Positions 11,311-61,756 of a DNA stretch of 64,000 bases are shown here, one piece after another (within the stretch, counting starts at the first letter, position 1; every line of letters starts with the position of its first letter). The notes beneath the pieces were generated by a model that was not told where the DNA came from, ran no database searches, and was given only the letters and a program-made list of their open reading frames with translations. A program made the translations under genes and the position numbers. Source of the stretch: Sulfitobacter sp. EhC04 (GTDB lineage Bacteria; Pseudomonadota; Alphaproteobacteria; Rhodobacterales; Rhodobacteraceae); NCBI RefSeq assembly GCF_001650875.1, contig NZ_LXYI01000024.1, positions 1 to 64,000 on the forward strand, in the 5' to 3' direction.

Positions 11311-11408
11311 AGCGCCCCGCCTTGAACTTGATACGCCAATACCCTGCCGCGCTGCGCGCTCTCGGGAGATTGGCGAAGTGATATGTTTCAGGTTAAAGGC
11401 GGGACGCT
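11311..11408 (+). repeat. 98-base palindromic dispersed repeat, copy 1
   Basis: An imperfect palindrome: outer arms GCGCCCCGCCTT and AAGGCGGGACGC, inner arms GCCAAT (11335-11340) and ATTGGC (11369-11374), and a central GCGC-TGC-GCGC hairpin. Almost identical in sequence and length to copy 2 at 46776-46873, and related to copy 3 at 61657-61756. It lies 30 bases after the MarC stop and ends 11 bases before the AGGAGG of the next gene. Confidence 0.9.
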
Positions 11409-11435
11409 GTAAGCCAGCAGGAGGTGATGCGAGAC

Positions 11436-12017
11436 ATGGGCGACATCGACACAATGCAATTGATCTACCTGATCGTACTGGGCGCGATGGTGGCCGGCTG
11501 GTTCTTTCTGCAATCGCGCGAAAGCCTGAACCGCAGCCTGCAATATGCCGCCGTCTGGGGCATGATCTTTGTCGGCGGGGCCGCCGCCGTGGGCCTGTGG
11601 CAGGACATCAGCCGCGACGCGCGACGCCCGCAGATGGTGCTGACCGGCGGCGACCGGATCGTGGTGCCCAAATCGCGCGACAGCCACTACTACCTCACGC
11701 TTGACATCAACGACACGCCGATCCGTTTCGTGGTGGACACCGGTGCCACCGATCTGGTGCTGACCCAGGCCGATGCCCGCAGCGCCGGGATCGACCCCGA
11801 CAGCCTGAATTTCCACGGCAGCGCCAATACCGCCAATGGCACGGTGCGCACTGCCTTTGTCCGGCTGGATACCGTCACCCTGGGCGACGTCACCGATACC
11901 AATGTCGCCGCCGTGGTGAACGCGGGCGAGATGCAGCAATCGCTGCTGGGCATGGGTTACCTGCAACGCTGGGGCCGCATCGAAATCACCGGTGGAGAGT
12001 TGATCCTGACGCGTTAA
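11436..12017 (+). CDS. retropepsin-like aspartic protease (clan AA, TIGR02281 type)
   Basis: A 193-residue protein with two N-terminal hydrophobic segments (about 5-22 and 36-54) and a periplasmic retropepsin-like domain carrying the catalytic motif VVDTGATDLVLT near residue 100 and LLGMGYLQR near 172. One aspartate motif per chain implies a dimeric protease, as in retroviral enzymes. AGGAGG (11419-11424) is eleven bases before the ATG at 11436; an ATG at 11427 and a GTG at 11424 are too close to it. The 98-base repeat sits directly upstream. The physiological substrate is unknown. Confidence 0.85.
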   Translation: MGDIDTMQLIYLIVLGAMVAGWFFLQSRESLNRSLQYAAVWGMIFVGGAAAVGLWQDISRDARRPQMVLTGGDRIVVPKSRDSHYYLTLDINDTPIRFVVDTGATDLVLTQADARSAGIDPDSLNFHGSANTANGTVRTAFVRLDTVTLGDVTDTNVAAVVNAGEMQQSLLGMGYLQRWGRIEITGGELILTR

Positions 12018-12044
12018 GGGCGCGCGGGCGGCGTTGTCAGGCGC

Positions 12045-12503
12045 TCAGGTCTCCGCCTTTTTCTCCCAACGGCCTGATTCCTCTGACCAGTATTGGGCCG
12101 AGGCACCCGCTTCCTTCAGCGTCTTCCATTGGGCGCGGGCGCGGGTCAGGGCGGCTTCGTCATCGCCATCGAACAACACGCAGACCCGTTCCAGCGCCGC
12201 AACCTCCTCTGCCGTCACCTCGGCCCCATGCACGGACATGACGCAGGCGGGGGTGTTCGCGGCCTCGGCGGCCGTGGTCAACAGCACCGGCTGCGCGGCA
12301 TCATGCGGCCCGCCTGCCATGCCATGCGGCAGGAACCCGTCGTCGGGGCCCAGCCACAGCGCGCGGTCCAAGGCCTCCAGCCCCGCCAGATCCGGGCCGC
12401 GCACGGCCACGCGCCAACCCTGGGCCTGTGACCTGTCCAGCAGCATCCGCAAAGTGTCGACCAATGGCCGCCGCGTCAGGTGATAGAAATAGGCCGCCCC
12501 CAT
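12045..12503 (-). CDS. holC: DNA polymerase III chi subunit
   Basis: A 152-residue protein matching the chi subunit of the clamp loader, which links the replisome to single-strand DNA-binding protein. Characteristic parts are AAYFYHLTRRPLVDTLRMLLDRS at the N-terminus, ALWLGPDDGFLPHG in the middle and RVCVLFDGDDEAAL near the C-terminus. It follows pepA by seven bases on the same strand, the usual pepA-holC pairing in Gram-negative bacteria, which strengthens the assignment. Confidence 0.93.
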   Translation of the reverse strand: MGAAYFYHLTRRPLVDTLRMLLDRSQAQGWRVAVRGPDLAGLEALDRALWLGPDDGFLPHGMAGGPHDAAQPVLLTTAAEAANTPACVMSVHGAEVTAEEVAALERVCVLFDGDDEAALTRARAQWKTLKEAGASAQYWSEESGRWEKKAET

Positions 12504-12510
12504 CGCCGGT

Positions 12511-13983
12511 TCACTCCGTCTCGAAGCGGTCGGCCACCAGCCGGTTCAGTGCTGCAACGCCCCAGCCTGTCGCCCCTGTGGGGGCCAGCGCCGTCTCCGA
12601 CTTGACCGAGGCAACCCCGGCGATGTCGAGGTGTATCCATGGGGTCTCTTCCTTGACGAAGCGTTGCAGGAACTGGGCCGCGGTGATCGACCCCGCCGCA
12701 CGGCCGCCGATGTTCTTCATATCCGCGATCCGGCTTTTCAGCAGGTCGTCATAGGCCTGACCCAGTGGCATCCGCCATGCGCCTTCGCCCTCGGTCTCCG
12801 CCGCCTTGAGGAAATCAGCGCAGAACCCGTCATTGTTGGAAAAGACCCCGGCGTTTTCATGGCCAAGCCCCACGATGATCGCGCCGGTCAGCGTCGCGAG
12901 ATCAACCATCGCGGCGGGTTTGAACCGGTCCTGCGCGTACCACATCACGTCGCAGAGCACCAAACGCCCCTCGGCGTCGGTATTGATGACCTCGACCGTG
13001 TCCCCCTTCATCGAGGTGATCACATCGCCCGGACGGGTGGCATTGCCCGACGGCATGTTCTCGACCAACCCCACCAGACCCACGACATTGGCCTTGGCCT
13101 TGCGCAGCGCAAGGCTGCGCATCACGCCGGCCACAACGCCTGCGCCGCCCATGTCCATGGTCATGTCTTCCATGCCGGCACCGGGTTTCAGGCTGATCCC
13201 GCCGGTGTCGAACACCACCCCCTTGCCGACCAGTGCCAGCGGTGCCGCATCCTTGGCCCCGCCTTCCCAGCGCATCACCACCACTTTGGACGGGCTGTCG
13301 GAGCCCTGCCCCACGCAGAGCAGCGTGCGCATGCCCAGCTTTTCAAGCGCTGCCTCTTCAAGCACCTCGACCTTGAGGCCGAGCTTTTCCATCGCGGCAA
13401 GCCGGTCGGCGAATTCGGTTGTCGTCAGCACGTTGGCGGGGGCGTTGATCAGGTCCCGGGTCATGAAGGCCCCTTCGGCCACCGCCATCAGCGGCGCGGC
13501 CTCTGCCTGCGCCTCTTCGGGCTTGCTGCACATCACGGTCACGGTGCCCTCGCGGTCTTTCGGCGCGCTCTTGTGGTCTTCGAACCCGTAGTCGCGCATG
13601 GCAAGGCCAAAGGCCATTTCCGCCACCCGGCGCATGCCCGCCGCCAGCACCAGCAGGTCAGCGGTGCCGCGCGCCTTGGCCAGGCTTGCACCTGCGCGGC
13701 GCGCCTCCTTGACGCTGATACGGCGCGGCAGGTGGATCACATCCACCGCCTCCGCCGCCAATCCGGCGGGATAGGCCATCGCCACACCCTGCCCCGGCTT
13801 CATCTGCGCGAACTTCTCGCCCTCGACCAGACGCGCCAGCGCCCCGCGCATCAGCTTGTTGACCCGCCGCGCGCCCGCGTCCAGACGCCCCTCCGGGTTG
13901 ACGAAAACAGCGATCCGGCCCTTGTGGCTGGCGATCTTGTCGATGTCGGTTTGGGAAAAGCTGATCGGGGTGAGGTCGGTCAT
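12511..13983 (-). CDS. pepA: leucyl aminopeptidase (M17)
   Basis: A 490-residue cytosolic aminopeptidase that removes N-terminal residues using two metal ions. The C-terminal catalytic domain shows LVGKGVVFDTGGISLKP, the Lys and Asp metal ligands, and NTDAEGRLVLCD, the M17 signature. The N-terminal domain (about 1-160) is the less conserved macro-like domain. The length is typical. It is transcribed leftward with holC and is divergent from lptF; the 147-base gap should hold both promoters. Confidence 0.97.
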   Translation of the reverse strand: MTDLTPISFSQTDIDKIASHKGRIAVFVNPEGRLDAGARRVNKLMRGALARLVEGEKFAQMKPGQGVAMAYPAGLAAEAVDVIHLPRRISVKEARRAGASLAKARGTADLLVLAAGMRRVAEMAFGLAMRDYGFEDHKSAPKDREGTVTVMCSKPEEAQAEAAPLMAVAEGAFMTRDLINAPANVLTTTEFADRLAAMEKLGLKVEVLEEAALEKLGMRTLLCVGQGSDSPSKVVVMRWEGGAKDAAPLALVGKGVVFDTGGISLKPGAGMEDMTMDMGGAGVVAGVMRSLALRKAKANVVGLVGLVENMPSGNATRPGDVITSMKGDTVEVINTDAEGRLVLCDVMWYAQDRFKPAAMVDLATLTGAIIVGLGHENAGVFSNNDGFCADFLKAAETEGEGAWRMPLGQAYDDLLKSRIADMKNIGGRAAGSITAAQFLQRFVKEETPWIHLDIAGVASVKSETALAPTGATGWGVAALNRLVADRFETE

Positions 13984-14130
13984 GAAAGGGCCCTTGTTCT
14001 GGTTTCCCGCAAAGACCTAGCGCGCCTGCCCGCCCATGACCAGATATCAGTTTTCCCCCCGCAGCTTTTACATTAATGTCGCATTCAACATCGCCGTCAG
14101 AGCGCCGGATGACACCTTGGGGGGATCGCA

Positions 14131-15258
14131 GTGGCCAGACTTGACCGCTACATGCTGTCGCAGTTTCTGCTGCTGTTCGGCTTTTTTGCGCTGGTTCTGG
14201 TGGCGCTGTTCTGGATCAACCGGGCGGTTTTGCTGTTCGACCGGCTGATCGGCGATGGCCAGTCCGCGCTGGTGTTCCTGGAATTCACCGCCCTTGGCCT
14301 GCCCAAGCTGATCCTGACCGTGCTGCCGATCGCCACCTTTGCCGGTGCAGCCTATGTCACCAACCGGATGAGCAGCGAAAGCGAGCTGACCGTACTGCAA
14401 TCGACCGGCTCCGGCCCCTGGCGGCTGGCGCGGCCCGTCTTTGTCTACGGTCTGTGCGTGGCCGGCATGATGTCCGTGCTCAGCCATTTTCTGGTGCCGA
14501 TGGCGCAGGGTCAGCTCAGCCAGCGCGAGACCGAGATTTCCCAGAACGTCACTGCGCGCCTGCTGACCGAAGGCACCTTCCTGCATCCGGGCGAGAACGT
14601 CACATTCTACACCCGGCTGATCGACACCGACGGCGTGTTGCGCGACGTTTTCCTGTCAGACCGGCGCAATCCCGACGAAGGGGTGATCTATACCGCCGCC
14701 GAAGCCTATCTGGTGCGCAACGGCGAAGGCACCACGCTGATCATGGTGGACGGGCTGGCACAGCGCCTGAACCGCGACACCAAACGGCTGGCCACGGCCA
14801 AATTCCGGGACTTTTCCTTTGATATCTCGGCGCTTGTCAGCAAATCCGCAGGGCGGCGCATTTCGGTGCCAAACCGGACAACCCCGGCTTTCCTGACCTC
14901 CTGGGACCAACTGTCAGAGGACTCGGGCGACAGCCTGGGCACGATTGCGGAAGAGTTTCATTCCCGCTTTGCCCAGCCCCTGTTCTGCGTGGTGGCGGCG
15001 ATGGTCGGCTTTTCCACCCTGCTGCTGGGCGGATTCTCGCGCTTTGGGGTCTGGCGCGAGGTCGTCATCGCCTTTGGCTTGCTGATCGCAATCGACGGGT
15101 TTCGCGGCGCGCTGGTGGACGAGGTGCTGACCGACCCGTCCAACTGGCCGCTGATGTACATGCCGGTCCTTGTCGGGACAATCCTGGTGGTGGCGATGCT
15201 GTCGGTGGCATCGCGGCCCAGCCTGTTGCGGCGCCGACGGCGGGGGGCTGCGGCATGA
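14131..15258 (+). CDS. lptF: LPS export ABC transporter permease LptF
   Basis: A 375-residue inner-membrane permease of the LptB2FG complex that lifts LPS from the inner membrane. It shows six transmembrane helices in a 3+3 layout around a periplasmic beta-jellyroll (about residues 130-265), with the N-terminal RYMLSQFLLLFGFFALVLVA helix of the YjgP/YjgQ family. The start is a GTG at 14131, giving MARLDRYML. The gene overlaps lptG by four bases and heads an eight-gene run ending at 23069. Confidence 0.94.
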   Translation: MARLDRYMLSQFLLLFGFFALVLVALFWINRAVLLFDRLIGDGQSALVFLEFTALGLPKLILTVLPIATFAGAAYVTNRMSSESELTVLQSTGSGPWRLARPVFVYGLCVAGMMSVLSHFLVPMAQGQLSQRETEISQNVTARLLTEGTFLHPGENVTFYTRLIDTDGVLRDVFLSDRRNPDEGVIYTAAEAYLVRNGEGTTLIMVDGLAQRLNRDTKRLATAKFRDFSFDISALVSKSAGRRISVPNRTTPAFLTSWDQLSEDSGDSLGTIAEEFHSRFAQPLFCVVAAMVGFSTLLLGGFSRFGVWREVVIAFGLLIAIDGFRGALVDEVLTDPSNWPLMYMPVLVGTILVVAMLSVASRPSLLRRRRRGAAA

Positions 15259-16352
15259 TCCTGCATCTGTATTTCGCCCGGCGTTTTGCCATCACCTTTG
15301 TCACCATCACCGCCATACTGTTTGCACTGGTGATGCTGGTCGATGCGGTCGAACAGGCGCGCCGCTTTGGCAGCTATGACCTGGGATGGCAACGCATCCT
15401 GGGGCTGACCCTGTTGAACACACCGCAGACCATCAACCTGATCCTGCCGCTGATCATGATCCTTGCCACCGTGGCATTGTTCATCTCGCTGGCCCGGTCA
15501 TCTGAAATGGTGGTGACGCGGGCCGCGGGCCGGTCCGCCCTGCGCGCGCTGATCGCGCCCGTGGTGGTGGCGCTGATCATCGGGGTGATGGCGGTGGGCA
15601 TGCTGAACCCCATCGTTGCGGCCACCAACAACCGCTACCTGCAATTGTCCGAAAGCTACCGCGCTGACGGGGCCTCTGCCCTGTCGATCAGCGACGAAGG
15701 GCTGTGGCTGCGCCAGGGCAATGTCGATGGCCAGACCGTGATCCGCGCCTGGCGCTCGAATGCCGATGCATCGGTGCTTTATGACGTGACCTTTATCACC
15801 TATGAGCACGACAAGGGGCCGGTGCGCAGGATCGAGGCCGGATCAGCCGCCCTGACCGACCGCGAATGGCGGTTGCGCGACGCCAAGTCATGGCCGCTGG
15901 AGGCCGGGGTCAATGCCGAAGGCAGTGCCACCACCCACGACCTGCTGACCATTCCGTCCTCTCTGACGGTGGAGCGCATCCGCGAAAGCATCGGCGCGCC
16001 GGGTGCGGTGTCGATCTATGACCTGCCCGAATTCATCCGGCAGCTTGAGCAGGCAGGCTTCAGCCCGCGCAAGCACCAGGTCTGGCTTCAGGCCGAATTC
16101 GCGCGGCCGTTTTTCCTGATAGCCATGGTTCTTGTTGCGAGCGCCTTCACCATGCGGCATACCAGATTTGGTGGTACAGGGGTCGCTGTACTGGCATCTG
16201 TGCTATTGGGGTTCACGTTGTATTTCATTCGCAGCTTCGCGCAAATCCTTGGTGAGAACGGGCAGATTCCCGTTCTTCTGGCCGCCTGGGCCCCGCCTGC
16301 GGTTGCGATCCTGCTGGCACTTGGCCTGCTCCTGCATGCAGAGGATGGCTGA
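15255..16352 (+). CDS. lptG: LPS export ABC transporter permease LptG
   Basis: A 365-residue partner permease of LptF with the same layout: N-terminal helices beginning LHLYFARRFAITFVTI, a central periplasmic domain with YDLPEFIRQLEQAGFSPRKH, and C-terminal helices with PFFLIAMVLVASAFTMRHTRFG. In the Lpt system it drives LPS onto the LptA/C bridge. Its ATG overlaps the lptF stop (ATGA) and it ends three bases before the lptD start, so the three are coupled. The ATPase LptB is not in the window. Confidence 0.95.
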   Translation: MILHLYFARRFAITFVTITAILFALVMLVDAVEQARRFGSYDLGWQRILGLTLLNTPQTINLILPLIMILATVALFISLARSSEMVVTRAAGRSALRALIAPVVVALIIGVMAVGMLNPIVAATNNRYLQLSESYRADGASALSISDEGLWLRQGNVDGQTVIRAWRSNADASVLYDVTFITYEHDKGPVRRIEAGSAALTDREWRLRDAKSWPLEAGVNAEGSATTHDLLTIPSSLTVERIRESIGAPGAVSIYDLPEFIRQLEQAGFSPRKHQVWLQAEFARPFFLIAMVLVASAFTMRHTRFGGTGVAVLASVLLGFTLYFIRSFAQILGENGQIPVLLAAWAPPAVAILLALGLLLHAEDG

Positions 16353-16355
16353 GCC

Positions 16356-18476
16356 GTGTACCGCTGGCTGCTGATACTGGCCCTCGCCGTGATGCCGCTC
16401 TCCGCCAAGGCGCAGCAAAGCGCGCCCCCCGCCGCGGTGCTGGTGGCCGATCAGGTCTTCCTGACCCGCGACCGGACGCTGGTGGCCCAGGGCAACGTCG
16501 AGGCCTTTCAGGGCGAAACCCGCCTGCGCGCCCGCACGATCAGCTACAACCAGACCACCGGGGCGTTGACCATCGAGGGCCCAATCGTCATTTCCGAAGG
16601 CGACGACACGCTGATCCTGGCGGATGCGGCGGAACTGGACCCGGATCTGCAAAATGGCCTGCTGCGCGGCGCGCGGCTGATCCTGAACCAGCAATTGCAA
16701 CTGGCCGCCAACCAGATCAACCGCGTCGACGGGCGCTACAGCCAGCTTTACAAGACCGCCGTGACGTCGTGCAAGGTCTGCGAGGACGGGCGCGCGCCGC
16801 TCTGGCAGATACGGGCCAAGCGGGTGGTCCATGACAAGCTCGAACAGCAGCTCTATTTCGACGAGGCATCGTTTCACATCCGCAACTTGCCGGTCTTCTA
16901 CTTGCCGCGCCTGCGCCTGCCCGACCCGACGCTGGCGCGGGCCACGGGGTTCCTGCAACCCTCGATCAGGACCACATCGCAACTGGGTACGGGTTTCAAG
17001 ATCCCCTATTTCATCAAGATCGGGGACCACCGCGACCTGACCCTGACCCCCTATCTGTCCAGCGCCACCCGGACCCTGGAATTCCGCTACCGGCAGGCGT
17101 TCAAATCCGGGCGCATCCAGTTCGACGGCGCCTATACCCGCGACGACCAGCGCCCCGGCGAAACCCGTGGATACCTCTTTGGTGTGGGCCGGTTCGACCT
17201 GGCGCGCGATTATGTGCTGGAGTTCGGGATCGAGACCACCAGCGACCCGGCCTATCTGACCGACTACGGCTATTCCGCCAAGGACCGCCTGACCAGCCAG
17301 CTGACCGTGAGCCGCGCGCGCCGCGACGCCTATGTGCGTGCCAGCATCTACAATTTCGAATCTCTCCGCGATACCGAAGTGAACGACGAATTGCCCACCA
17401 TCGTCCTTGACGGCGACTACGAGCGGCGGATGTTCCCTTCCGGCATCGGCGGCGAGGTGCGGATGCGAATCCAGGCGCACAGCCACCGGCGCACCTCGGA
17501 TACCGACATCATCGGGCGCGACGTGGCCCGCCTGCACGGAGAAATCAAATGGCTGCGGCGCATGACCTTTGGCAACGGGCTGGTTGCGGACGGGCAGATC
17601 GGCGCCAGCTTCAACGCCTTTGATATCGTGCAGGACAGCAGTTTCGCGCAGAACCACTCTGACATCGTACCGGCAGCGGCCCTTGCCCTGCGCTATCCGA
17701 TGATCCGGCGCGGGCGGGGCGGTGTGACCCACCTGCTGGAACCGATTGCCCAGATCGGCTGGTCCGGCGGCAACCGCCTGCCGATCCCCAACGATGAAAG
17801 CACGCGGGTCGAATTCGACGAGGGCAATCTGCTGTCACTGTCGCGCTTTCCACGCCCCGACCGCCGCGAAAGACATGCGGTGGCGGCCATTGGCCTCAAC
17901 TGGTCGCGCTTTGATCCCACCGGATGGGACGCACATCTGACCATCGGCCAGGTCCTGCGCGAACAGGCCGATCTGGAATTCACCACAACCTCCGGCCTGG
18001 CGGGCACCTCTTCGGATTTCCTGCTGGCGGGCCAGATCAAGACCGCGCAGGGCCTGTCGCTGACCGGGCGCGGGTTGTTTGACGACGAATTCCAGTTCGC
18101 CAAGGCCGAGCTGCGCGGCGACTGGGAATTTACCCGCGGACGCCTTGGCGGCAGCTATGTCTGGCTGGACTCCGATCTGGCCGAAGACCGCACACAGGCG
18201 GTGTCCGAGATCGCGCTTGACGGCGATTACCGGATCAACAGGCAATGGACCGCATCAGCCGACTGGCGTTTTGACGTGGCAGACGACCGCGCCGCCTCGG
18301 CGGGCGTCGGCCTGACCTACAACAATGAATGCGTGTCGGTCGACCTTTCGGTCAATCGGCGCTATTCCACTTCAACAAGTGTTGAGCCCTCTACCAATAT
18401 CGGTTTTAACATCGGGCTCAGGGGCTTTGCCGCCTCCAATGGAACAGAAAGATACGTGCGCTCATGCCGAAACTGA
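16356..18476 (+). CDS. lptD: LPS assembly outer-membrane protein LptD
   Basis: A 706-residue outer-membrane barrel that inserts LPS into the outer leaflet. A GTG start at 16356 gives a signal peptide (YRWLLILALAVMPLSAKA). The N-terminal OstA-like domain (about 30-200) includes VTSCKVCEDGRAPLW; two Cys here and one in CVSVDLSVNRRYS near the end could form the disulphides LptD needs. The barrel carries repeated aromatic strands and an asymmetric C-terminus ending RYVRSCRN. It is shorter than enteric LptD (about 780), as is usual in this group. Confidence 0.95.
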   Translation: MYRWLLILALAVMPLSAKAQQSAPPAAVLVADQVFLTRDRTLVAQGNVEAFQGETRLRARTISYNQTTGALTIEGPIVISEGDDTLILADAAELDPDLQNGLLRGARLILNQQLQLAANQINRVDGRYSQLYKTAVTSCKVCEDGRAPLWQIRAKRVVHDKLEQQLYFDEASFHIRNLPVFYLPRLRLPDPTLARATGFLQPSIRTTSQLGTGFKIPYFIKIGDHRDLTLTPYLSSATRTLEFRYRQAFKSGRIQFDGAYTRDDQRPGETRGYLFGVGRFDLARDYVLEFGIETTSDPAYLTDYGYSAKDRLTSQLTVSRARRDAYVRASIYNFESLRDTEVNDELPTIVLDGDYERRMFPSGIGGEVRMRIQAHSHRRTSDTDIIGRDVARLHGEIKWLRRMTFGNGLVADGQIGASFNAFDIVQDSSFAQNHSDIVPAAALALRYPMIRRGRGGVTHLLEPIAQIGWSGGNRLPIPNDESTRVEFDEGNLLSLSRFPRPDRRERHAVAAIGLNWSRFDPTGWDAHLTIGQVLREQADLEFTTTSGLAGTSSDFLLAGQIKTAQGLSLTGRGLFDDEFQFAKAELRGDWEFTRGRLGGSYVWLDSDLAEDRTQAVSEIALDGDYRINRQWTASADWRFDVADDRAASAGVGLTYNNECVSVDLSVNRRYSTSTSVEPSTNIGFNIGLRGFAASNGTERYVRSCRN

Positions 18477-24841: not shown

Positions 24842-25893
24842 GCGTTCATCGCCGCAAGCTGCTGCGCCTGCGCATCAGCCGTCAGCGCATCCACGATCTC
24901 GTCCAGATCGCCCTGCATCACCGCATCCAGCCGGTACAGCGTCAGATTGATCCGGTGGTCGGTCATCCGCCCTTGCGGAAAATTATAGGTCCTGATCCGC
25001 TCCGACCGGTCGCCCGATCCCACTTGCGCCGCCCGGTCGGCTGAGCGTGCGCTGTCCACCCGTGACCGTTCCATGTCATAAAGCCGCGCTTTGAGCACCT
25101 GCATCGCCTTGTCGCGGTTGCGGTGCTGCGACTTTTCCGAAGAGGTCACCACGATCCCTGTCGGAATATGGGTGATCCGCACGGCGGAATCGGTGGTGTT
25201 GACATGCTGCCCGCCCGCACCCGAGGACCGCATCGTGTCAATGCGCAGATCATTGGCGTTGATCTCGATATCCACATCCTCGGCCTCCGGCAGCACCGCG
25301 ACAGTGGCGGCAGAGGTGTGGATGCGCCCGCCGCTTTCGGTGCTGGGCACCCGCTGCACCCGATGCACACCGCTTTCGAACTTCAACCGGGCAAAGACAT
25401 TCTGGCCGGTGATATGCGCCACCACTTCCTTGACCCCGCCCAGTTCCGTCATCTGGCTTTCGATCAGGTCGAACCCCCAGCCGCGCGTCTCGGCATAGCG
25501 CTGGTACATCCGCAACAGATCCGCCGCGAACAGCGCCGCCTCGTCGCCGCCGGTGCCGGGCCGGATTTCCAGCATCGCAGGCTTGGCGTCAGCGGCATCG
25601 CGCGGCAAAAGCGCCAGTTGCAGCGCCGCCTCCACTTTGGGCAATGCCTCCTTCAGGGTCGGCATTTCCTCGCGCGCAAGCTCGGCCATCTCAGGGTCCG
25701 CCAGCATCGCCCTGGCGTCCTCCATGTCCCTGAGCAACTGCCGGTACAGGTCGATCTGCTCCACCACCGGCTTCAGATCGGCATATTCCTTGGCAAGCGC
25801 GGCAAAATCAGCCCCGTCGGACCCGGCAGACATGGCGGCCTCCAGGTACTGGAAGCGCTGGGTGATCTGCAAAAGACGGTCCATGGGTATCAT
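24838..25893 (-). CDS. prfA: peptide chain release factor 1
   Basis: A 351-residue class I release factor reading UAA and UAG. The GGQ loop ([17 protein letters not shown]) is near residue 230. The codon-recognition tripeptide is PST ([16 protein letters not shown]), a mild variant of the usual PAT/PVT. The rest matches RF1 throughout ([16 protein letters not shown] near the end). I choose the ATG at 25893 (MIPMDRLL); 25884 is an alternative, and neither has a strong ribosome binding site. It is followed by prmC. Confidence 0.96.
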
Positions 25894-46358: not shown

Positions 46359-46775
46359 ATGACCGCCGACCAGATCATCGCGCATCTCGACCTTGCCCCA
46401 CACCCGGAGGGTGGACATTACCGCCAGACCTGGGTGGCAGACAACGCGGGCCGCCCCAGCGGCACCTGCATCTATTTCCTGCTGCGCGCGGGCGAGCGCA
46501 GCCATTGGCACCGGGTCGACGCAACCGAAATCTGGCTATACCACGCCGGTGCGCCGCTGATCCTGTCGCTGTCTGATACCGATACCGGACCCGCCAAAGA
46601 TCACCTGCTGACCCCGGATCTGGCCACCGGCGCACCACAGATCATCGTGCCGGAAAACCACTGGCAGGCCGCACGCAGCACCGGCGACTACACCCTGGTC
46701 AGCTGCACCGTCTCTCCCGGCTTCCACTTCGACGGCTTCACCCTCGCGCCGCCCGGCTTCGACATTCCCCGCTAA
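46359..46775 (+). CDS. DUF985 cupin-fold protein
   Basis: A 138-residue cupin with HPEGGHYRQTWV, AGERSHWHRVDATEIWLYHAG and VPENHWQAARSTGDYTLVSCTVSPGF, the hallmarks of DUF985 (cupin superfamily). His and Glu residues suggest metal binding, as in other cupins; the substrate is unknown. It follows a GNAT gene by 17 bases. Copy 2 of the 98-base repeat starts right after its stop. Confidence 0.92.
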   Translation: MTADQIIAHLDLAPHPEGGHYRQTWVADNAGRPSGTCIYFLLRAGERSHWHRVDATEIWLYHAGAPLILSLSDTDTGPAKDHLLTPDLATGAPQIIVPENHWQAARSTGDYTLVSCTVSPGFHFDGFTLAPPGFDIPR

Positions 46776-46873
46776 AGCGCCCCGCCTTGAACTTGAAACG
46801 CCAATACCCTGCCGCGCTGCGCGTTCTCGGGACATTGGCGAAGTGATATGCTTCAGGGTAAAGGCGGGACGCT
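46776..46873 (+). repeat. 98-base palindromic dispersed repeat, copy 2
   Basis: It begins immediately after the DUF985 stop codon and is nearly identical to copy 1 at 11311-11408. The inner arms GCCAAT (46800-46805) and ATTGGC (46834-46839) and the outer arms are kept. Confidence 0.9.
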
Positions 46874-46879
46874 GTTACA

Positions 46880-47121: not shown

Positions 47122-48228
47122 TCACCCCGGCATGCTGACCGTGCCACCGCCTACCGCCGCGCGCACGCCGGTGGTGCCGGGGCAGGACGTGGGCAGCCCC
47201 CGCGCCACCCGCACCGCGAGATAGGCAAAGGCCTGCGCCTCCAGCATGTCGCCATCCAACCCGACCTCCTCCACCGGCACCACGGGGCACTCCAGCGAAA
47301 CGCTGAGCATCTGCATCAACACCGGGTTGTGCCGCCCGCCGCCGGTAACCAGCACCCGTGCGGGCGGGCGCGGGCAGTGCTGCATCGCCTCGGCCACACC
47401 GGCGGCACACATCGCCGTCAGCGTGGCGGCGGCATCGGCATCGGAAAGCTCGCTCACCAGCGCCACCATCTCGGCAAAATCGTTGCGGTCCAGTGACTTG
47501 GGCGGGATACGCGCGAAATAGGGTTCGGCCAGGAACAGCTCAAGCGCGCCGGTTTCCACCCTGCCCCGCCGCGCGATCCTGCCGCCCTCGTCAAAGGGCA
47601 GACCCAGCCGCGCCTGCAACAGATCGTTGAGCGGCGCATTGGCGGGCCCGGTGTCGAAGGCCAGCAAGGCCCCCTCTGCCTCCGGTGCCTCGATGCCTGG
47701 GTCCACCCATGTCAGGTTGCCCACGCCGCCAAGGTTCAGGAATCCCACCGGGCCGTTGATGCCCGCGAACCGCGCGCAGGCGTGGTGAAAGAACGGCGCC
47801 AGCGGCGCGCCTTCGCCGCCAAGCTGCACATCGGCGCTGCGGAAATCCCAGACCACGGGCAGGCCCAGCTTCTGCGCCAATGCTGCGCCATCGCCCACCT
47901 GCAAGGTCCCGCGGCTGCGCGGCGCATGGGCCAGCGTCTGGCCGTGAAAGCCGATCAGATCCACCGCGCCAAAGCCACCCAGCAGTTCCAGATGCGCGGC
48001 TTCCACGACCTCTGCCGCCGCCTGCACTTCCGGCCCCGCCCATTTGCCCAGACCTTCCGCGATAACCGCCCGCTCCTGCGGGGAATAAGCGCGATAACCG
48101 CTCTTGCCGAAAGACGTGATCTGCCGGCCGTCGGTGCGCAGCACCGCCGCATCCACGCCGTCCAGCGATGTGCCCGACATCGCCCCCAGCGCGGTCACCA
48201 CGCCCGTTTTCCCGATGGCCCTGCTCAT
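47122..48228 (-). CDS. anmK: anhydro-N-acetylmuramic acid kinase
   Basis: A 368-residue kinase of the cell-wall recycling pathway that hydrates and phosphorylates 1,6-anhydro-MurNAc. It carries [22 protein letters not shown] at the N-terminus, [29 protein letters not shown] and [15 protein letters not shown] near the C-terminus. I use the ATG at 48228; a TTG at 48240 is possible. It is divergent from tyrS by about 77 bases, a common arrangement. The window also has nagZ, another recycling gene. Confidence 0.95.
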
Positions 48229-48305
48229 GTTGCCGTCCAAGGCCTTTCCCTTTGATCCTGCTGCGCCTATAGATGCCCCGCAATCCCAGCCCGAGGCAAG
48301 ACATC

Positions 48306-51537: not shown

Positions 51538-51540
51538 GCG

Positions 51541-54264: not shown

Positions 54265-54328
54265 GGGCCGCTGCTAGCGTCACCTTGAGGGGAAATCAAC
54301 GCCCCTCCTCTTTTTGGCCAAAAATATC

Positions 54329-55051: not shown

Positions 55052-55120
55052 CACCGGTTCATGCTCCCCTTGCACTGCCGCCCCTGTGACGACCTGCCAA
55101 AGAGATATGACACCATGATG

Positions 55121-55576: not shown

Positions 55577-55666
55577 CTGTCCTGCCCTCTTGCCCTTGTT
55601 TGGTCTGGCTTTATTTCGCATACACCATGGACCCCCTCCGGTTCAAGAAACGAAAACAGGCCTCTC

Positions 55667-56218
55667 ATGTCCCCCAAGCCCCCAAGCGACACTGCCATCC
55701 GCGTCTCTGAGCTGTCCCAGAGCGCCGAAAACGGTTTTGCCCTGCGCCCCGACAAGGTGGCGCTGGAGCGGATCGCGGCAGAACTCGACCTCAGCGCCCT
55801 GCGCAAACTCAGCTTTGAAGGGCGGATCAGCCCGCTGGGCCGCAGCGACTGGCAGTTGACCGGCAGGCTGGGTGCCACGGTGGTGCAGCCCTGCGTCGTC
55901 ACGCTGGCCCCTGTCACCACCCGCATCGACACGGATGTGACGCGCCAATTCGTGACCGGGTATGTCGACCCCGAGGAGCCGGAGGCCGAAATGCCCGAGG
56001 ATGACAGCACCGAACCGCTGGGCCAGTGGATCGACCCCGCCATCGTCATGCAGGAGGCGCTGGCCCTGGCGGTGCCGGATTATCCCCGTGCCGAGGGGGC
56101 CGAGCCGGTGCAGATGGTCTATACCGAACCGGGCCAGGCGCCGATGACGGACGACGACGCCAAACCCTTTGCCGGGCTGGCCGATCTGAAGGCAAAGCTG
56201 AAAAAGGAAGACCCCTGA
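55667..56218 (+). CDS. DUF177 (YceD) protein
   Basis: A 183-residue protein of the DUF177 family, recognised by LSFEGRISPLGRSDWQLTGRLGATVVQPCVVTLAPV and the acidic C-terminal region. Plant and E. coli members are needed for normal 23S rRNA or RpmF processing. The gene is followed, as usual, by rpmF and plsX. The start at 55667 (MSPKPPSDTAIRVSEL) was preferred over upstream in-frame codons. There is no signal peptide, so it is cytoplasmic. Confidence 0.9.
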   Translation: MSPKPPSDTAIRVSELSQSAENGFALRPDKVALERIAAELDLSALRKLSFEGRISPLGRSDWQLTGRLGATVVQPCVVTLAPVTTRIDTDVTRQFVTGYVDPEEPEAEMPEDDSTEPLGQWIDPAIVMQEALALAVPDYPRAEGAEPVQMVYTEPGQAPMTDDDAKPFAGLADLKAKLKKEDP

Positions 56219-56272
56219 ACACCGCCTTCGGTTGGTCCTTGCCGACGGGTCGGCACAACGCGAAATACCTGC

Positions 56273-56300
56273 TTGCATCGGGGCATTTTCGCGGTATTTT
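56273..56300 (+). promoter_or_regulatory. possible promoter for rpmF-plsX-fabH
   Basis: TTGCAT (56273-56278) and TATTTT (56295-56300), spacer 16, lie about 140 bases upstream of rpmF in the 218-base gap after the DUF177 gene. The match is moderate. Confidence 0.35.
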
Positions 56301-56436
56301 GCCGCCCTCACCCCAATTAAGGTTGGACAATGCATGGCCTCTCGCCTAAAGCGGCGTCACGCCCGATAAGGGGTCGATTGAAACACGGCTGTTTGCGCCC
56401 ATGGTGCACAGCCCCGAACCGACAAAGGCACCAGAC

Positions 56437-56643
56437 ATGGCTGTCCAGCAGAATAAAGTTTCCAAGTCGCGCCGCAACAACCGCCGCGCGCACGATTCGC
56501 TCTCGGCTGCGAACCCGAACGAATGTTCCAACTGCGGCGAGCTGAAGCGCCCGCACCACATCTGTGCCGCCTGCGGTCACTACGATGATACAGAGGTGGT
56601 CGCCCTGGCAGACGAGATCGAACTGGAAGACGACGCGGCCTGA
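56437..56643 (+). CDS. rpmF: 50S ribosomal protein L32
   Basis: A 68-residue ribosomal protein: [20 protein letters not shown], then the zinc-binding Cys pattern [22 protein letters not shown] (two CxxC pairs), so it is the C+ form. The start at 56437 is fixed by the conserved [10 protein letters not shown] sequence. It lies between the DUF177 gene and plsX, the standard order in proteobacteria. Confidence 0.98.
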
Positions 56644-56687
56644 GCCGGCGCTGACTGAATTCAGATCATAAAAAGGCATTCGCACCC

Positions 56688-57764
56688 ATGACGGCCCCGA
56701 CCGATCATACCGCAGCGAAGGCCGGACGCACCCTGATATCCGTGGACGCCATGGGGGGTGATGAAGGCCCGGCAGCCGTTGTTGCCGGGTGTTCGCTGTC
56801 TGCAAAGCTCAATCCTGATATCGCCTTTGTCCTGCACGGGGACGAGGCGCAGCTGGCACCGCTGGTCGCCAAGCGGCGCGAGCTGAAAGGCCGCTGCGAG
56901 ATCAGGCATGCCGCCGATGTCGTGACCATGGAGGACAAGCCGAGCCAGGTGGTACGTACCGGCAAGGACACCTCAATGTGGTCCGCGATCGAGGCGGTGC
57001 GCACGGGCGAGGCCGCCGTGGCGGTGTCCTGCGGCAATACCGGGGCGCTGATGGCGCTGTCGATGATCCGGCTCAAGAAACTGCCGGGTGTGAACAGGCC
57101 CGCCATCGCGGTGCTTTACCCGTCGTCCAACCCGCAGGGCTTCAACGTGATGCTGGACGTGGGCGCGGATGTGCGCGCCGACGCGGATGACCTGCTGCGG
57201 TTCGCGCTGATGGGAACATCCTATGCCCGCAATGGCATGGACATCGCCCGCCCCCGTGTCGGGCTGCTGAATGTCGGCACCGAAGAGCACAAGGGCCGCG
57301 CCGAGTTGAAAGAGGCCTATGACCTGATTCGCGACCAGCGCGATCAGGCCGGGTTTGAATTTGTCGGCTTTGTCGAAGGTGGCGATATCTCAGGCGATGC
57401 GGCAGACGTGATCGTGACCGACGGCTTCACCGGCAACATCGCCATCAAGACCGGCGAAGGCACCGCCAGCATGATCGGCGACCGGCTGCGCGAGGCGTTC
57501 AAATATTCGCCCCTGTCCCGGCTGGCCTCGCTGCTGGCCTATACCTCGCTGATGCGCCTGCGCCACAAGATCGACCCGCGCCGGGTCAATGGCGGCGTAT
57601 TTCTCGGCCTCAATGGCACGGTGGTCAAATCACACGGCTCTGCCGATGCAACCGGCGTATCTGCGGCGATCAAGCTGGCGGCGCAGCTCTCCGAGAGCCG
57701 CTTTAACGACAAACTTGCCGCACGCGTCGCCGCCACGCTGCCGACCGAAGAGACGCCCATATGA
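56688..57764 (+). CDS. plsX: acyl-ACP:phosphate acyltransferase PlsX
   Basis: A 358-residue peripheral membrane enzyme that makes acyl-phosphate from acyl-ACP for phospholipid synthesis. Diagnostic sequence: SVDAMGGDEGPAAVVAGC, VSCGNTGALMALSMIRLK, NPQGFNVMLDVGADVRAD and VVTDGFTGN-type IVTDGFTGNIAIKTGEGTAS. The length matches the family. Its stop overlaps the fabH start by four bases. Confidence 0.97.
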   Translation: MTAPTDHTAAKAGRTLISVDAMGGDEGPAAVVAGCSLSAKLNPDIAFVLHGDEAQLAPLVAKRRELKGRCEIRHAADVVTMEDKPSQVVRTGKDTSMWSAIEAVRTGEAAVAVSCGNTGALMALSMIRLKKLPGVNRPAIAVLYPSSNPQGFNVMLDVGADVRADADDLLRFALMGTSYARNGMDIARPRVGLLNVGTEEHKGRAELKEAYDLIRDQRDQAGFEFVGFVEGGDISGDAADVIVTDGFTGNIAIKTGEGTASMIGDRLREAFKYSPLSRLASLLAYTSLMRLRHKIDPRRVNGGVFLGLNGTVVKSHGSADATGVSAAIKLAAQLSESRFNDKLAARVAATLPTEETPI

Positions 57765-58732
57765 ATACCAGATCTGTTGTCATTGGCTGCGGCCACTACC
57801 TGCCTTCGCGGATTGTCGAGAATTCGGAGTTCGAGGCCACGCTGGACACCAATGATGAATGGATCAGATCCCGTTCGGGCATTGAACGGCGCCATTTTGC
57901 GGCCGATCATGAAAACACCTCGCAAATGGCCACTGCCGCTGCCCAGGCAGCGCTGGACGATGCTGGCCTTGGCGCGGACGACGTTGATGCCATCATCCTG
58001 GCGACCTCTACCCCCGATCTGACCTTTCCTTCTGCTGCAACCATGGTGCAGGCCCAACTTGGCATGACGCGCGGCTTTGCCTTTGACGTGCAGGCGGTCT
58101 GCGCGGGCTTTGTCTTTGCCCTGGCCAATGCCAACGCGCTGATCCTCTCGGGCCAGGTCTCGCGGGTTCTGGTGATCGGGTCGGAAACCTTCAGCCGCAT
58201 CATGGACTGGACCGACCGTTCAACCTGCGTGCTGTTCGGTGATGGTGCGGGCGCTGTGCTGCTTGAGGCGCAGACCGGCGAGGGCACCGCGCAGGACCGT
58301 GGCATCCTCTCGACCGATCTCAACTCTGACGGGCGGCACCGCGAGCTGCTTTACGTCGACGGCGGCACCAGCACGGGCACTGTCGGCTATCTTCGGATGC
58401 AGGGCAATCAGGTGTTCCGCCACGCGGTCGGCAAGCTGGCAGCCACCGCCACGACGGCGATGGAACGTGCAGGCGTCACCGCCGGGGATGTGGACTGGAT
58501 CGTGCCGCATCAGGCCAACATCCGCATCATCCAGGGCACCGCGAACAAGCTGAACCTGCCAATGTCGCAGGTGGTTGTGACGGTGCAGGACCACGGCAAC
58601 ACCTCGGCGGCCTCTATTCCGCTGGCGCTGTCCGTTGGCCGTGACCGTGGCCAGATCAAGCAGGACGACCTGCTGGTAATGGAGGCGATCGGCGGCGGCC
58701 TGGCCTGGGGTGCTGTCGTTCTCAGGTGGTAA
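57761..58732 (+). CDS. fabH: 3-oxoacyl-ACP synthase III
   Basis: A 323-residue condensing enzyme that starts fatty-acid synthesis from acetyl-CoA and malonyl-ACP. The catalytic triad is visible: Cys in FDVQAVCAGFVFAL (near 112), His in WIVPHQANIRI (near 247) and Asn in QDHGNTSAASIPLAL (near 277). N-terminal SRSGIERRHFA is the CoA-binding region. The start overlaps plsX (ATGA). A perfect 16-base palindrome follows the stop at 58747-58762. Confidence 0.97.
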   Translation: MNTRSVVIGCGHYLPSRIVENSEFEATLDTNDEWIRSRSGIERRHFAADHENTSQMATAAAQAALDDAGLGADDVDAIILATSTPDLTFPSAATMVQAQLGMTRGFAFDVQAVCAGFVFALANANALILSGQVSRVLVIGSETFSRIMDWTDRSTCVLFGDGAGAVLLEAQTGEGTAQDRGILSTDLNSDGRHRELLYVDGGTSTGTVGYLRMQGNQVFRHAVGKLAATATTAMERAGVTAGDVDWIVPHQANIRIIQGTANKLNLPMSQVVVTVQDHGNTSAASIPLALSVGRDRGQIKQDDLLVMEAIGGGLAWGAVVLRW

Positions 58733-58746
58733 GCGCCTGTTATTCT

Positions 58747-58762
58747 GGCGGAAATTTCCGCC
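58747..58762. promoter_or_regulatory. perfect 16-base palindrome GGCGGAAATTTCCGCC between fabH and ihfA
   Basis: It lies 15 bases after the fabH stop, 81 bases before ihfA. There is no T run after it, so as a terminator it would be weak; as a symmetric site it could bind a dimeric regulator. Confidence 0.4.
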
Positions 58763-58842
58763 GAAACAGCGCCACACAAGTCATTGATATTGACTTCTAA
58801 TTCCACTGCAGCCAAAGTTGCCGAAAATAAATGGGGGATTGA

Positions 58843-59145
58843 ATGTCGAATAAGACTTTGACGCGCATGGATCTGAGCGAAGCTGTGTTTCGCGAAGTGG
58901 GTCTATCGCGCAACGAGAGCGCGCAACTTGTCGAGTCCGTTCTGGAGCACATGTCCGACGCGCTGGTCGTCGGAGAGCAGGTCAAGATTTCGTCTTTTGG
59001 CACGTTTTCGGTCCGTGACAAGACCGCCCGCGTGGGCCGCAATCCCAAGACCGGAGAAGAAGTGCCGATCAACCCGCGCCGGGTCCTGACCTTTCGCCCA
59101 TCCCATCTGATGAAAGACCGCGTCGCCGACGGCAACAAGTCCTGA
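58843..59145 (+). CDS. ihfA: integration host factor alpha subunit
   Basis: A 100-residue DNA-bending protein. [52 protein letters not shown] with the [11 protein letters not shown]-binding arm and [14 protein letters not shown] are the IhfA pattern. In this group the gene usually stands between fabH and a MerR-like gene, as here; 4 bases separate it from the next ATG, so they are cotranscribed. Confidence 0.96.
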
Positions 59146-59149
59146 TCTC

Positions 59150-60343
59150 ATGGCCAAATCGCCCGACGCGTTCCGTACCATTTCCGAAGTGGCCGACTGG
59201 CTGGGCATCCAGGCCCATGTCCTGCGGTTCTGGGAAAGCAAGTTCACGCAGGTCAAACCGATCAAGCGGGCGGGCGGACGGCGATACTATCGCCCCGGTG
59301 ACATGCAACTTCTGGGCGGCATCAAGAAACTGCTGCATGACGACGGACTGACCATCAAGGGCGTTCAGAAGATCCTCCGGGAGGAAGGCATGAACCACGT
59401 CGCCGCCATGTCGGCGCCGCTGGATGAACTCACGGCCTCCCAGATAGAAGACATGCCGGAAGCCGCCGCACCGCCACCGCCGATAGCACCGGTGGAGCCG
59501 GAAAAGGGCGTTGTGCTCAGCTTTGAATCCGCGGCAGACAAAGACGTGAACAAAGCCCCGGAAGGCGTTGAAGACAAAGAAGATACAGCGCCTGAAGCCG
59601 CTGATGAGTCAATTGAGGCAGCGCAACAGCCCCCCGCCGCTGTCCCGGATGTTCCGATACCCGATGATGCGGCCAGCGCGACACCGTCAGACCCGTCCGT
59701 GCCAGCTTCGGACGTGTCCGCCGACAGGTCTGAGCCGGAGCAGCAAGACGACGCTGCGCCCGCCGGAAACGATCCCGAACCAGTCGAAGACCCCGCGCCC
59801 GTTGAAGAGGCCCCGATGGCCGAAGATGTTGCGGAGACGGAATTCGAACCGATGGCGGAGGAACCGGCAGACATACGGCAGGCCGACACCCCCGACCCGG
59901 AACCGGAAGCCCCGGAACCGGACGCCCCCGCAGCGGCCCCCGAAGACAGGCAGGCCCTGCCCGCCTTTCTGCGCCGCCCGCTGGACGGTGGCCCGGCTGA
60001 CATTTCCGACAACACCCCGCCAAGGGCGACGCAGGGTGGCGAAGCGCCTGCCCCGCAGGCAGATGCCCCGCAATCAACGCCCGCCTCGCAGTCGGCCCCA
60101 GCCGACCCACCCGAAGAAATGGTGCCGCCCGCGCCGAAACCGCGTGTCCTGCCCGATCTGGCGCTGACAGCGGAACAGGACTTTGATGCGATCCCCGCCG
60201 TTCTGACCACGGCATATCGGCTGGGATCCTTGAATCGGAACAATGTCGCCAGGATTGAACCGCTGGTGGCACGGCTGACAACGCTGCGTGATTCGATGGC
60301 CGCCCGCAGGCGCAACGGCGGCAGCCCCCCGTCAAACAGCTGA
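59150..60343 (+). CDS. MerR family regulator with long acidic, proline-rich extension
   Basis: A 397-residue protein. Residues 1-75 form a MerR-type winged helix ([46 protein letters not shown]), and the downstream 250 residues are Pro, Ala, Asp and Glu rich and probably disordered, with a small ordered end ([18 protein letters not shown] and [15 protein letters not shown]). The C-terminal extension has no known effector site. The ihfA-merR-tRNA order is typical of Rhodobacteraceae. Function unknown; DNA binding is clear. Confidence 0.9.
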
Positions 60344-60371
60344 TCCCCATGTTCAGGGTGGCAATTCCCTC

Positions 60372-60399
60372 TTGCACGCCGGGCAAGATCAGGTATGAA
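60372..60399 (+). promoter_or_regulatory. promoter of tRNA-Pro
   Basis: TTGCAC (60372-60377) and TATGAA (60394-60399) are separated by 16 bases; the expected start is four or five bases before the tRNA gene at 60411. Confidence 0.55.
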
Positions 60400-60410
60400 C
60401 CGCCTGAGTT

Positions 60411-60487
60411 CGGGCTATGGCGCAGCCTGGTAGCGCGTCCGTCTGGGGGACGGAAGGTCGCAGGTTCGAGTCCTGCTAGCCCGACCA
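60411..60487 (+). tRNA. tRNA-Pro (anticodon GGG)
   Basis: A 77-base cloverleaf including an encoded CCA. The acceptor stem is CGGGCTA paired with TAGCCCG, the D arm has GCGC-AGCCTGGTA-GCGC, the anticodon stem is TCCGT/ACGGA around loop CTGGGGG (anticodon GGG), and the T arm is GCAGG-TTCGAGT-CCTGC. Its 3' end has no integrase or repeated copy nearby, so it is not seen to serve as an attachment site. Confidence 0.97.
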
Positions 60488-60496
60488 AACAATCCG

Positions 60497-60535
60497 AACG
60501 CCCGCACCCCCTGTGGTTCGCGGGCGTTTGTTTTT
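60497..60535 (+). terminator. intrinsic terminator of tRNA-Pro
   Basis: A 9-base-pair stem AACGCCCGC (60497-60505) with GCGGGCGTT (60520-60528), then TTGTTTTT. It starts ten bases after the tRNA end. Confidence 0.85.
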
Positions 60536-60550
60536 GAAAGGCCCGACCCG

Positions 60551-61639
60551 ATGAGCGATGTGATGCATGGCGTGATCCCCAACCAGCAGATCAGCGACAT
60601 GATCGACGCAGGTCAGATCAGCGCGTCCCAACCCGTCCTTCCCGGTCAGATCCAGCCTGCCAGTCTTGATCTGCGCCTGGGCACCCGCGCCTTTCGCGTG
60701 CGCGCTTCCTTTCTGGCCGGGCGCGGCAACAGCGTCGCGGATCGGTTGAGCGAATTCCAGATGCATGAGGTTGATCTGACCCAGGGCGCGGTGCTGGAAA
60801 AAGGCTGCGTCTATCTCGTGCCGCTGATGGAGGCGCTGTCGCTGCCTGCCGGTACTTCCGCTGTGGCCAATGCCAAAAGCTCGACCGGGCGGCTTGACCT
60901 GTTGACCCGCACGATCACCGATGGCGGCACCGAATTCGACCGGATCGCGCCGGGCTACACCGGGCCGCTTTATGCCGAGATTTGCCCGCGCTCCTTTTCC
61001 GTGCTGGTGCGGCCGGGCATGCGCCTGAACCAGATCCGCTTTGGCCGGGGCGATGCGATGCTGGACGACGCGGCCCTGCGCGCCCTGCATGATCAGACCC
61101 CGCTGGTGGATGGCAAACCGGTGATCGACGACGGGCTGGGCTTTTCCGTTGATCTGAAGCTGCCTGGCACGACATTGGTGGGCTACCGGGCCAAGCCCCA
61201 TACCGGCCTGATCGACCTTGATCTTATCGGCCATTACGCAGCGGCGGATTTCTGGGAAGAGGTCCACAGCACCCAAGGGCATATCATCCTTGATCCCGGC
61301 GCATTCTACATCCTCGTCAGCCGCGAGGCGGTGACGATTCCGCCGGATTTTGCCGCTGAAATGGCCCCATATCTGGCCATGGTGGGCGAATTCCGGGTGC
61401 ATTACGCGGGGTTCTTCGATCCCGGGTTTGGCCATGCCGCAGCGGGTGGCACAGGCTCACGCGGCGTGCTTGAGGTCCGCTGCCACGAAGCGCCTTTTGT
61501 GCTGGAACATGGCCAGGTGGTGGGCAGGCTGATCTACGAACGGATGACCGAACGGCCCACACAGCTTTATGGCGCGGGCATCGCGTCGAACTATCAGGGA
61601 CAGGGGCTGAAACTCAGCAAACATTTCAAACCTGCCTGA
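60551..61639 (+). CDS. dcd: 2'-deoxycytidine 5'-triphosphate deaminase, two-domain form
   Basis: A 362-residue enzyme of the DCD long form, with an N-terminal dCTP deaminase-like domain (PGQIQPASLDLRLGTRAFRV, then VANAKSSTGRLDLLTRTITDGG) and a C-terminal domain of the same fold (IDLDLIGHYAAADFWEE, GTGSRGVLEVRCHEAPFVLEHGQ). It produces dUTP from dCTP for thymidylate synthesis. This duplicated architecture is typical of alphaproteobacteria and is nearly twice the length of E. coli Dcd. Copy 3 of the 98-base repeat follows after 17 bases. Confidence 0.92.
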   Translation: MSDVMHGVIPNQQISDMIDAGQISASQPVLPGQIQPASLDLRLGTRAFRVRASFLAGRGNSVADRLSEFQMHEVDLTQGAVLEKGCVYLVPLMEALSLPAGTSAVANAKSSTGRLDLLTRTITDGGTEFDRIAPGYTGPLYAEICPRSFSVLVRPGMRLNQIRFGRGDAMLDDAALRALHDQTPLVDGKPVIDDGLGFSVDLKLPGTTLVGYRAKPHTGLIDLDLIGHYAAADFWEEVHSTQGHIILDPGAFYILVSREAVTIPPDFAAEMAPYLAMVGEFRVHYAGFFDPGFGHAAAGGTGSRGVLEVRCHEAPFVLEHGQVVGRLIYERMTERPTQLYGAGIASNYQGQGLKLSKHFKPA

Positions 61640-61656
61640 CACCCCCGCTCTTTTAG

Positions 61657-61756
61657 AGCGTCCGACCTTAAACTTGAGAGACGAATACCCTGCCGCGCCT
61701 GCGGCGCTCTCGGGACATTCGTGTCACAGGATGATTCAGGTTAAAGGCCGGTCGCT
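61657..61756 (+). repeat. palindromic dispersed repeat, copy 3 (100 bases, diverged)
   Basis: Shares the order and spacing of copies 1 and 2, including CGAATACCCTGCCGCGC-type and GCTCTCGGGACATT-type segments. The inner arms changed together to ACGAAT (61681-61686) and ATTCGT (61717-61722), keeping pairing. It lies just after the dCTP deaminase gene. Confidence 0.85.

Follow-up and report, generated by a model that had tools for sequence, protein, structure and literature searches.

What kind of element is a palindrome of about 100 bases that occurs three times in one stretch of Sulfitobacter sp. EhC04 DNA, each time just behind a gene? The window, that is the whole 64,000-nucleotide stretch analysed here, was described in an earlier note as carrying a repeat whose pairing is selected and which would be, among other readings, a structured RNA or a miniature mobile unit, and not a simple terminator. 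We examined the three copies, their relatives in the same and in other genomes, the sites they occupy, the pairing of their arms and the enzymes that could move them.

Three copies of a palindrome in the window

The copies at 11311-11408 (W1), 46776-46873 (W2) and 61657-61756 (W3) were confirmed in the sequence; the length of 98 bases attributed to all of them holds for the first two, whereas the third has 100. The element proper, A-AGCG...CGCT-G, occupies 11310..11409 in W1 (plus strand, 100 bp; covariance-model match 11308-11411, 127 bits) and is flanked there by CA (11308-11309), where TA is expected, and by TA (11410-11411). W2 covers 46775..46874 (plus strand, 100 bp; model match 46773-46876, 124.9 bits) between TA (46773-46774) and TT (46875-46876, TA being expected). 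W3, a member of another subfamily, covers 61656..61757 (plus strand, 102 bp; model match 61654-61759, 90.6 bits) and has TA on both sides (61654-61655 and 61758-61759).

As the earlier note had it, every copy directly follows a plus-strand gene. W1 lies 29 bases behind a gene for a MarC family membrane protein (10484..11281; PF01914, 190.8 bits), W2 at the stop codon of a Cupin_5 (DUF985) gene (46359..46775; PF06172, 155.3 bits), whose ORF end is the left edge of the element, and W3 17 bases behind a dCTP deaminase gene (60551..61639; PF06559 and PF22569). On the other side, W1 is followed by an aspartyl protease-like gene (11424..12017, plus strand; PF13975, 89.4 bits), and W2 and W3 face convergent neighbours on the minus strand, namely the AnmK gene (47122..48240; PF03702, 235.8 bits) and a predicted gene (61820..62095) found with a home-made gene caller and free of Pfam matches. 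At W2, the upstream gene ends in a TAA that is composed of the flanking TA and the first A of the element.

W1 and W2 share 95% identity over 98 bases, and each of the three copies folds as one long hairpin. The outer arm GCGCCCCGCCTT pairs with AAGGCGGGACGC, one C.A mismatch excepted, and the pairing of the inner arm GCCAAT/ATTGGC is complete. The paired differences reported for W3 are seen in the alignment: its inner arm, ACGAAT/ATTCGT, carries two paired changes and one outer C-G pair has become G-C, in an outer arm that also has two mismatches. Folding z-scores of W1, W2 and W3 are -5.5, -4.0 and -4.1 on the plus strand, with 0, 0 and 1 of 200 shuffles folding as well, and -6.5, -5.2 and -4.2 on the minus strand, with 0 of 200 in each case. 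Read directly on the plus strand, the sequences 3' of the three stems (GTAAGCC, GTTACAT and ATAGGCA) are without a T-run.

A dispersed family with a patchy host range

Searching the own genome (G000, a draft assembly of 89 contigs) with the W1 98-mer gave 42 matches at E <= 0.001. A covariance model built from 42 copies and run against both strands of this genome yielded 108 matches, from which 83 distinct places were aligned; since 150 of 3,919 first-look candidates were scored, 83 is a lower bound. Within the genus, 12 of 36 genomes have a match, the own one counted. Two congeners are rich in copies (at least 59 matches in G018 and at least 41 in G010, with 66 candidates scored in each), and the nine others have 1-3. 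Matches were obtained in at least 44 of 295 genomes of the family, the own one counted (a lower bound, 13 candidates being scored per genome), and in 0 of 24 genomes from other families of the class. The search of relatives that the earlier note had proposed finds further copies in the family, and the three in the window are not the only ones. A scan of named genomes with the core pattern returned 71 stretches, of which 69 are Rhodobacterales by their titles, including Sulfitobacter, Pelagimonas, Shimia, Primorskyibacter, Loktanella and others, some of these genera being presumably members of that order; the remaining two belong to a Nitratireductor and to an unresolved alphaproteobacterium. 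Furthermore, 75 plasmid records carry copies, 68 of them predicted conjugative, and none of 50,697 phage records has a match. Near-identical copies of subfamily B have unrelated flanks. The palindrome is a dispersed family, patchily spread over genomes.

No Rfam family matches the palindrome, either in the window, where only 5_ureB_sRNA and tRNA exceed the threshold, or at five other palindrome loci, where nothing does. The 5_ureB_sRNA match (RF02514, 105.3 bits), at 4009-4297 of the window, is a strong one and is enclosed by a long same-strand ORF. Searches of the open-access literature, with most subscription journals outside their range, yielded no description of the palindrome family; as far as such searches reach, it is undescribed.

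Boundaries, target and empty sites

At the left boundary of the 83 copies, Y is found in 77, T in 61 and A in 66, followed by the element's A or G; at the right boundary, T is found in 79, A in 71 and R in 78. Positions outside the boundary hold at most 0.16 bit. These counts support a boundary of the form Y-TA-[A-AGCG...CGCT-G]-TA-R, that is, a YTAR target of which the TA is duplicated. The same target and TA duplication are reported for IS711 of Brucella (PMC2266754).

The W1 region is present in 40 of 40 same-genus genomes searched, the own one counted, and W1 itself is absent in all 29 relatives with both flanks. These flanks are 40-94 bases apart, compared with 139 in the own genome, so that none of the 29 relatives can hold W1; one of the gaps, too short for a copy, contains 11 bases that match the core apart from two mismatches. 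At the W2 site, both flanks were recovered in 12 of 16 genomes, and in six the matching sequence extends as far as the cupin gene's end. W2 is absent in four of these six (G356, G024, G032 and G021); in the other two, the site is occupied by about 1 kb of different sequence, with a two-mismatch stretch in one. Where the own genome reads CGCTAA at the element edge, G356 reads CGCTAG and lacks the element, with about eight extra bases before the alignment resumes. At the W3 site, both flanks were found in 15 of 16 genomes and a copy at the same place in none; a different copy lies about 0.5 kb off in G018, and G029 has a two-mismatch stretch.

The flanks of 20 further copies were then joined over a single TA and searched in G356 and G018. 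Joined flanks align across the junction in G356 for 6 of the 20 copies, two of them also in G018, and at L062 the two flanks stand side by side. Four of the six G356 junctions are gap-free within four bases, and the others show a 2-base gap at a distance of three bases. Of seven comparisons with G356, three (L030, L013 and W2) give TA as the empty allele and the rest TT, CA, TG or GA, G356 being only 80-86% identical at these places. The lengths of the empty sites fit an insertion with a 2-base duplication; that these two bases are TA is indicated mainly by the sequence logo.

Some copies depart from the common form. At L018, L024, L167, L174 and L197-L201, TTG replaces the left TAA; these variants have longer flanks in common, in the own genome and G356, and resemble composite or nested repeats. 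On contig C31 of G000, two copies (25048-25145 and 25150-25247) stand in tandem with GTAA between them, as would result from insertion of one copy at its neighbour's edge.

Gene context

Neighbouring genes were called with a home-made program that uses codon usage and was trained on 30 ORFs of the window. Among the 76 copies with both neighbours called, 42 occupy gaps between convergent genes, compared with 37 of 175 background YTAR sites outside genes (Fisher p 3e-7), and 4 occupy gaps between divergent genes, compared with 39 of 175 (Fisher p 8e-4). The edge of the element is a neighbour's stop codon in 26 of 83 copies (15 on the left, 11 on the right; two copies with the stop 4-6 bases off are left out) versus 23 of 219 background sites (p 4e-5). 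On the left, TA and the element's A make a TAA stop. A right-hand stop is rebuilt only with T or C before TA, and a terminal G, present in 59 of the 83 copies, is absent from all 11 right-hand cases. Two of the 83 own copies overlap a called gene. Purifying selection on random YTAR insertions could account for most of this pattern.

Pairing of the arms

Covariation was assessed in an alignment of 73 copies (3 from the window, 5 from G356, 20 from G018, 20 from G010 and 25 from other genomes). The 34-pair structure used is the minimum-energy fold of W1 and hence leans to W1, and the alignment (A3) was fitted to the related model R1, which has only 23 pairs. Double changes occur at 21 of the 34 pairs, 14 of them among the 19 pairs of the outer stem, where 83.9% of cells are paired. 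The number of double-change cells is 198, compared with 56.2 (sd 6.0) in shuffles, which are no strict null as the copies are related and the alignment was fitted to a related model. The covariation score is 0.263 versus 0.110 in shuffles and at most 0.096 with the partners slid. The arms occur as the variants GCGCCCCGCCTT/AAGGCGGGACGC, GCGTTTCGGGAT/ATCCCGAAAAGC, GCGTTTCCAGTTT/AACTGGAAACGC and GCGCCCTTTCT/AGAAAGGA, switching in blocks from subfamily to subfamily, while the core AATACCCTGCC...CTCTCGGGACATT is almost invariant. By reading, a second core, ACTTGTTCGCTGCC...GCGCGAAAAGTGA, was found on the same arms and ends in 11 of the 83 own copies (L184, L186-L190 and L192-L196). A stretch of this second core beside L028 matches more than 20 places in G018.

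Resident copies behave differently. We compared 37 of the 42 aligned own copies with their subfamily consensus, leaving out five rows of other kinds: 31 changes break a pair, 7 keep it via G-U and 1 is compensated. Changes per site in the stem and in the unpaired part, which contains a variable loop, are 0.50 versus 2.23 in subfamily A and 0.09 versus 0.40 in subfamily B; these 4-5 times fewer stem changes per site could mean a constraint on resident copies. Grouped by genome or subfamily, with four core pairs omitted, 15 A.C versus 13 G.U states are counted and neither strand is favoured; two T-G columns that hardly vary distort the raw counts (158 A.C, 165 G.U). In 68 of the 73 copies, the better fold is that of the minus strand; its mean advantage is 8.2 kcal/mol, compared with 2.4 (sd 4.2) in shuffles.

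Since the arms change together between subfamilies and the core stays constant, we infer that pairing matters for propagation of the family; at any one resident copy it would matter little. Compensation would have arisen within the lineage of moving copies. The earlier claim that pairing is selected is retained as a constraint at the family level (21 of 34 pairs, 198 versus 56.2 cells); a role of pairing at each site is not supported (31 breaks, 1 compensated). Sole copies, chance covariation and a lack of empty sites, the outcome that the earlier note had set against its own reading, are not what the data show.

Copies in genes, on plasmids and split by other elements

A gene that adjoins ParB on the D. 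shibae plasmid pDSHI03 (L396) encodes a protein of 230 residues, compared with 197 residues for the 'regulator' of an S. mediterraneus plasmid. Apart from three substitutions, the two differ only in 33 residues (99 bp) that are inserted in frame in the longer protein; this insertion is a copy of the palindrome family without a TA duplication. On the S. mediterraneus plasmid, another copy stands at the stop codon of the 'regulator' gene, a place at which pDSHI03 has the empty CATAATGGG. Together with L396, the loci L395 and L400 represent this insertion and a second copy that sits at the stop of the ParB-adjacent gene in other plasmids. One gene on a Pseudosulfitobacter plasmid is as long as the enlarged form, and the gap behind it is roughly as large as the element. 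At L203 and L079, a gene among conjugation-type genes, which we take to be trbG, starts within a copy that forms its N-terminus.

Two copies are split by a nested non-coding element, at L022 (1197-1500, 304 bp) and L166 (3910-4170, 261 bp). It has the ends GGCTCTGGACCCATTAAT with TA on both sides, and these resemble the ends that relatives show at four of their loci for DUF4096 transposases. A further dispersed repeat, GGGCCTGTGGACATTCAT...CCACCCG, occurs in the downstream flank of L031, upstream of the copy at L198 and at more than 10 places in G356.

Search for the moving enzyme

Three kinds of partner were tried and rejected. For an IS630-type enzyme, the own genome offers three DDE_3 matches, of which one is over the cut-off and is a fragment only. 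DUF4096, examined as an IS5-type partner, is present in 7 of 8 genomes searched; 5 of the 26 loci examined show TA-flanked inverted ends, none of them palindrome-like. Among the IS630-type and DUF4096 loci examined, no transposase with the palindrome's ends was found. A RAYT partner fails on the absence of Y1_Tnp from the copy-bearing G018 and G356. The arm pattern was counted 68 times in forward and 72 times in reverse orientation, and inspection by eye of 100 places listed gave no pair at IS length that could bracket an autonomous element.

Interpretation

Collectively, the number of copies, their absence from orthologous sites and the YTAR/TA boundary support the miniature mobile unit suggested in the earlier note. 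In our judgement, the palindrome is probably a non-autonomous, MITE-like mobile element of about 100 bp that is moved in trans by a TA-duplicating transposase and is also carried on conjugative plasmids. Several results speak against this reading: no transposase with the palindrome's ends at the loci examined, an empty allele of TA in just three of seven comparisons, the pDSHI03 copy that lacks a TA duplication, the TTG variants and the slower change of stem positions within subfamilies. A transposase acting in trans would move it into YTAR sites, duplicating TA. With the left TA and the terminal A giving TAA, insertion in a TAA or TAG stop would keep a stop. Selection against insertions within genes and promoters would leave copies at gene 3' ends, and conjugative plasmids would carry copies along. 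A more speculative possibility is that the element is recognised by its shape: the enzyme may read the hairpin core and the TA-N-AGCG ends, the arms may need only to pair, and arms and cores may be exchangeable modules. Two cores on one kind of arms do occur in one genome. If the element is recognised in this way, pairing would be selected in moving copies, and covariation in a repeat family would record transposition and not an RNA.

The covariation itself could also be mutational. Imperfect palindromes are substrates of template-switch correction, and hairpin template switching that copies one arm onto the other would let a mobile element covary with its pairing unselected. The blockwise change of arms between subfamilies agrees with this, and such correction is the chief competing explanation of the covariation; still, we find it rather unlikely, given that the core pairs are constant although the arms vary and that, within subfamilies, unmatched single changes outnumber matched double changes by 31 to 1, so that correction is infrequent on that time scale. 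Alternatively, the hairpin could be a functional RNA or mRNA 3'-end element that stabilises, processes or terminates the mRNA of the upstream gene, a role that has been proposed for other intergenic palindromes, host use retaining the copies that mobility spread. The strong family-level covariation, the 42 of 76 copies between convergent genes, the fewer changes at stem positions and the better folding of the minus strand (8.2 kcal/mol versus 2.4 in shuffles) are all in its favour. However, pairs in resident copies are broken by single changes far more than they are compensated (31 versus 1), the G-U strand preference disappears after grouping, presence varies among close relatives, neither an Rfam match nor a T-tract in the window copies was found, and 3'-end placement is equally expected from purifying selection. 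We therefore judge a host RNA improbable and do not maintain the structured RNA of the earlier note.

Two further readings have little to commend them. An element of the REP/RAYT type, mobilised by a Y1 tyrosine transposase, would be compatible with the single Y1_Tnp match in each of the own genome and G010, but not with the lack of Y1_Tnp in the copy-rich G018 and the copy-bearing G356, nor with G002, G013, G015 and G017, which have Y1_Tnp yet no element match. To our knowledge, TA duplication is not expected of Y1 enzymes, and we see a very small chance for this reading. Ordinary intrinsic terminators resembling one another would explain stable stem-loops directly 3' of genes, but the window copies have no T-run after their stems on the plus strand, and about 100 bases of common sequence with fixed ends recur at 83 places; this reading is scarcely credible, and the earlier note rightly set a simple terminator aside.

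Covariation is the usual evidence for functional RNA. Because it combines strong covariation between subfamilies with hardly any compensation in resident copies, the palindrome family is a caution for RNA discovery. It is also a test case for structure-dependent transposition, shows a repeat landing in stop codons while preserving them, and marks traffic between roseobacter chromosomes and conjugative plasmids.

Comparison with known systems

Bru-RS1 and Bru-RS2 are reported as intergenic palindromes of Brucella, 103-105 bp long (PMC2267715), and associated with IS711 (PMC2266754). Similar in size to these alphaproteobacterial palindromes, the present one measures 100-102 bp plus TA on each side, and here too copies are split by a nested TA-duplicating element. 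Compared by description, the two differ in host order, and no Brucella is found among the 71 core-pattern stretches. Rickettsia palindromic elements, of about 100-150 bp, are reported to insert in frame into genes in some cases (PMC10969869). The 33-residue in-frame insertion in a plasmid gene and the copy serving as N-terminus of a conjugation gene recall this behaviour, whereas, on comparison by description only, the present copies are mostly intergenic or at gene ends, with 2 of 83 overlapping called genes. REP/REPIN sequences with their RAYT enzymes are likewise dispersed extragenic palindromes, but the present element is longer, has TA edges and occurs in G018 and G356 without a Y1 transposase.

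RUP, Correia/NEMIS and ERIC are bacterial MITEs of the TA-duplicating kind. The palindrome resembles them in being short (98-104 bp), non-coding, dispersed and built of inverted repeats with TA at both edges, though a few copies are read through in genes. It differs from them in its arms, which vary with paired changes between subfamilies while the inner core is fixed; this combination of arms that covary with a core that is conserved is the unusual feature of the family.
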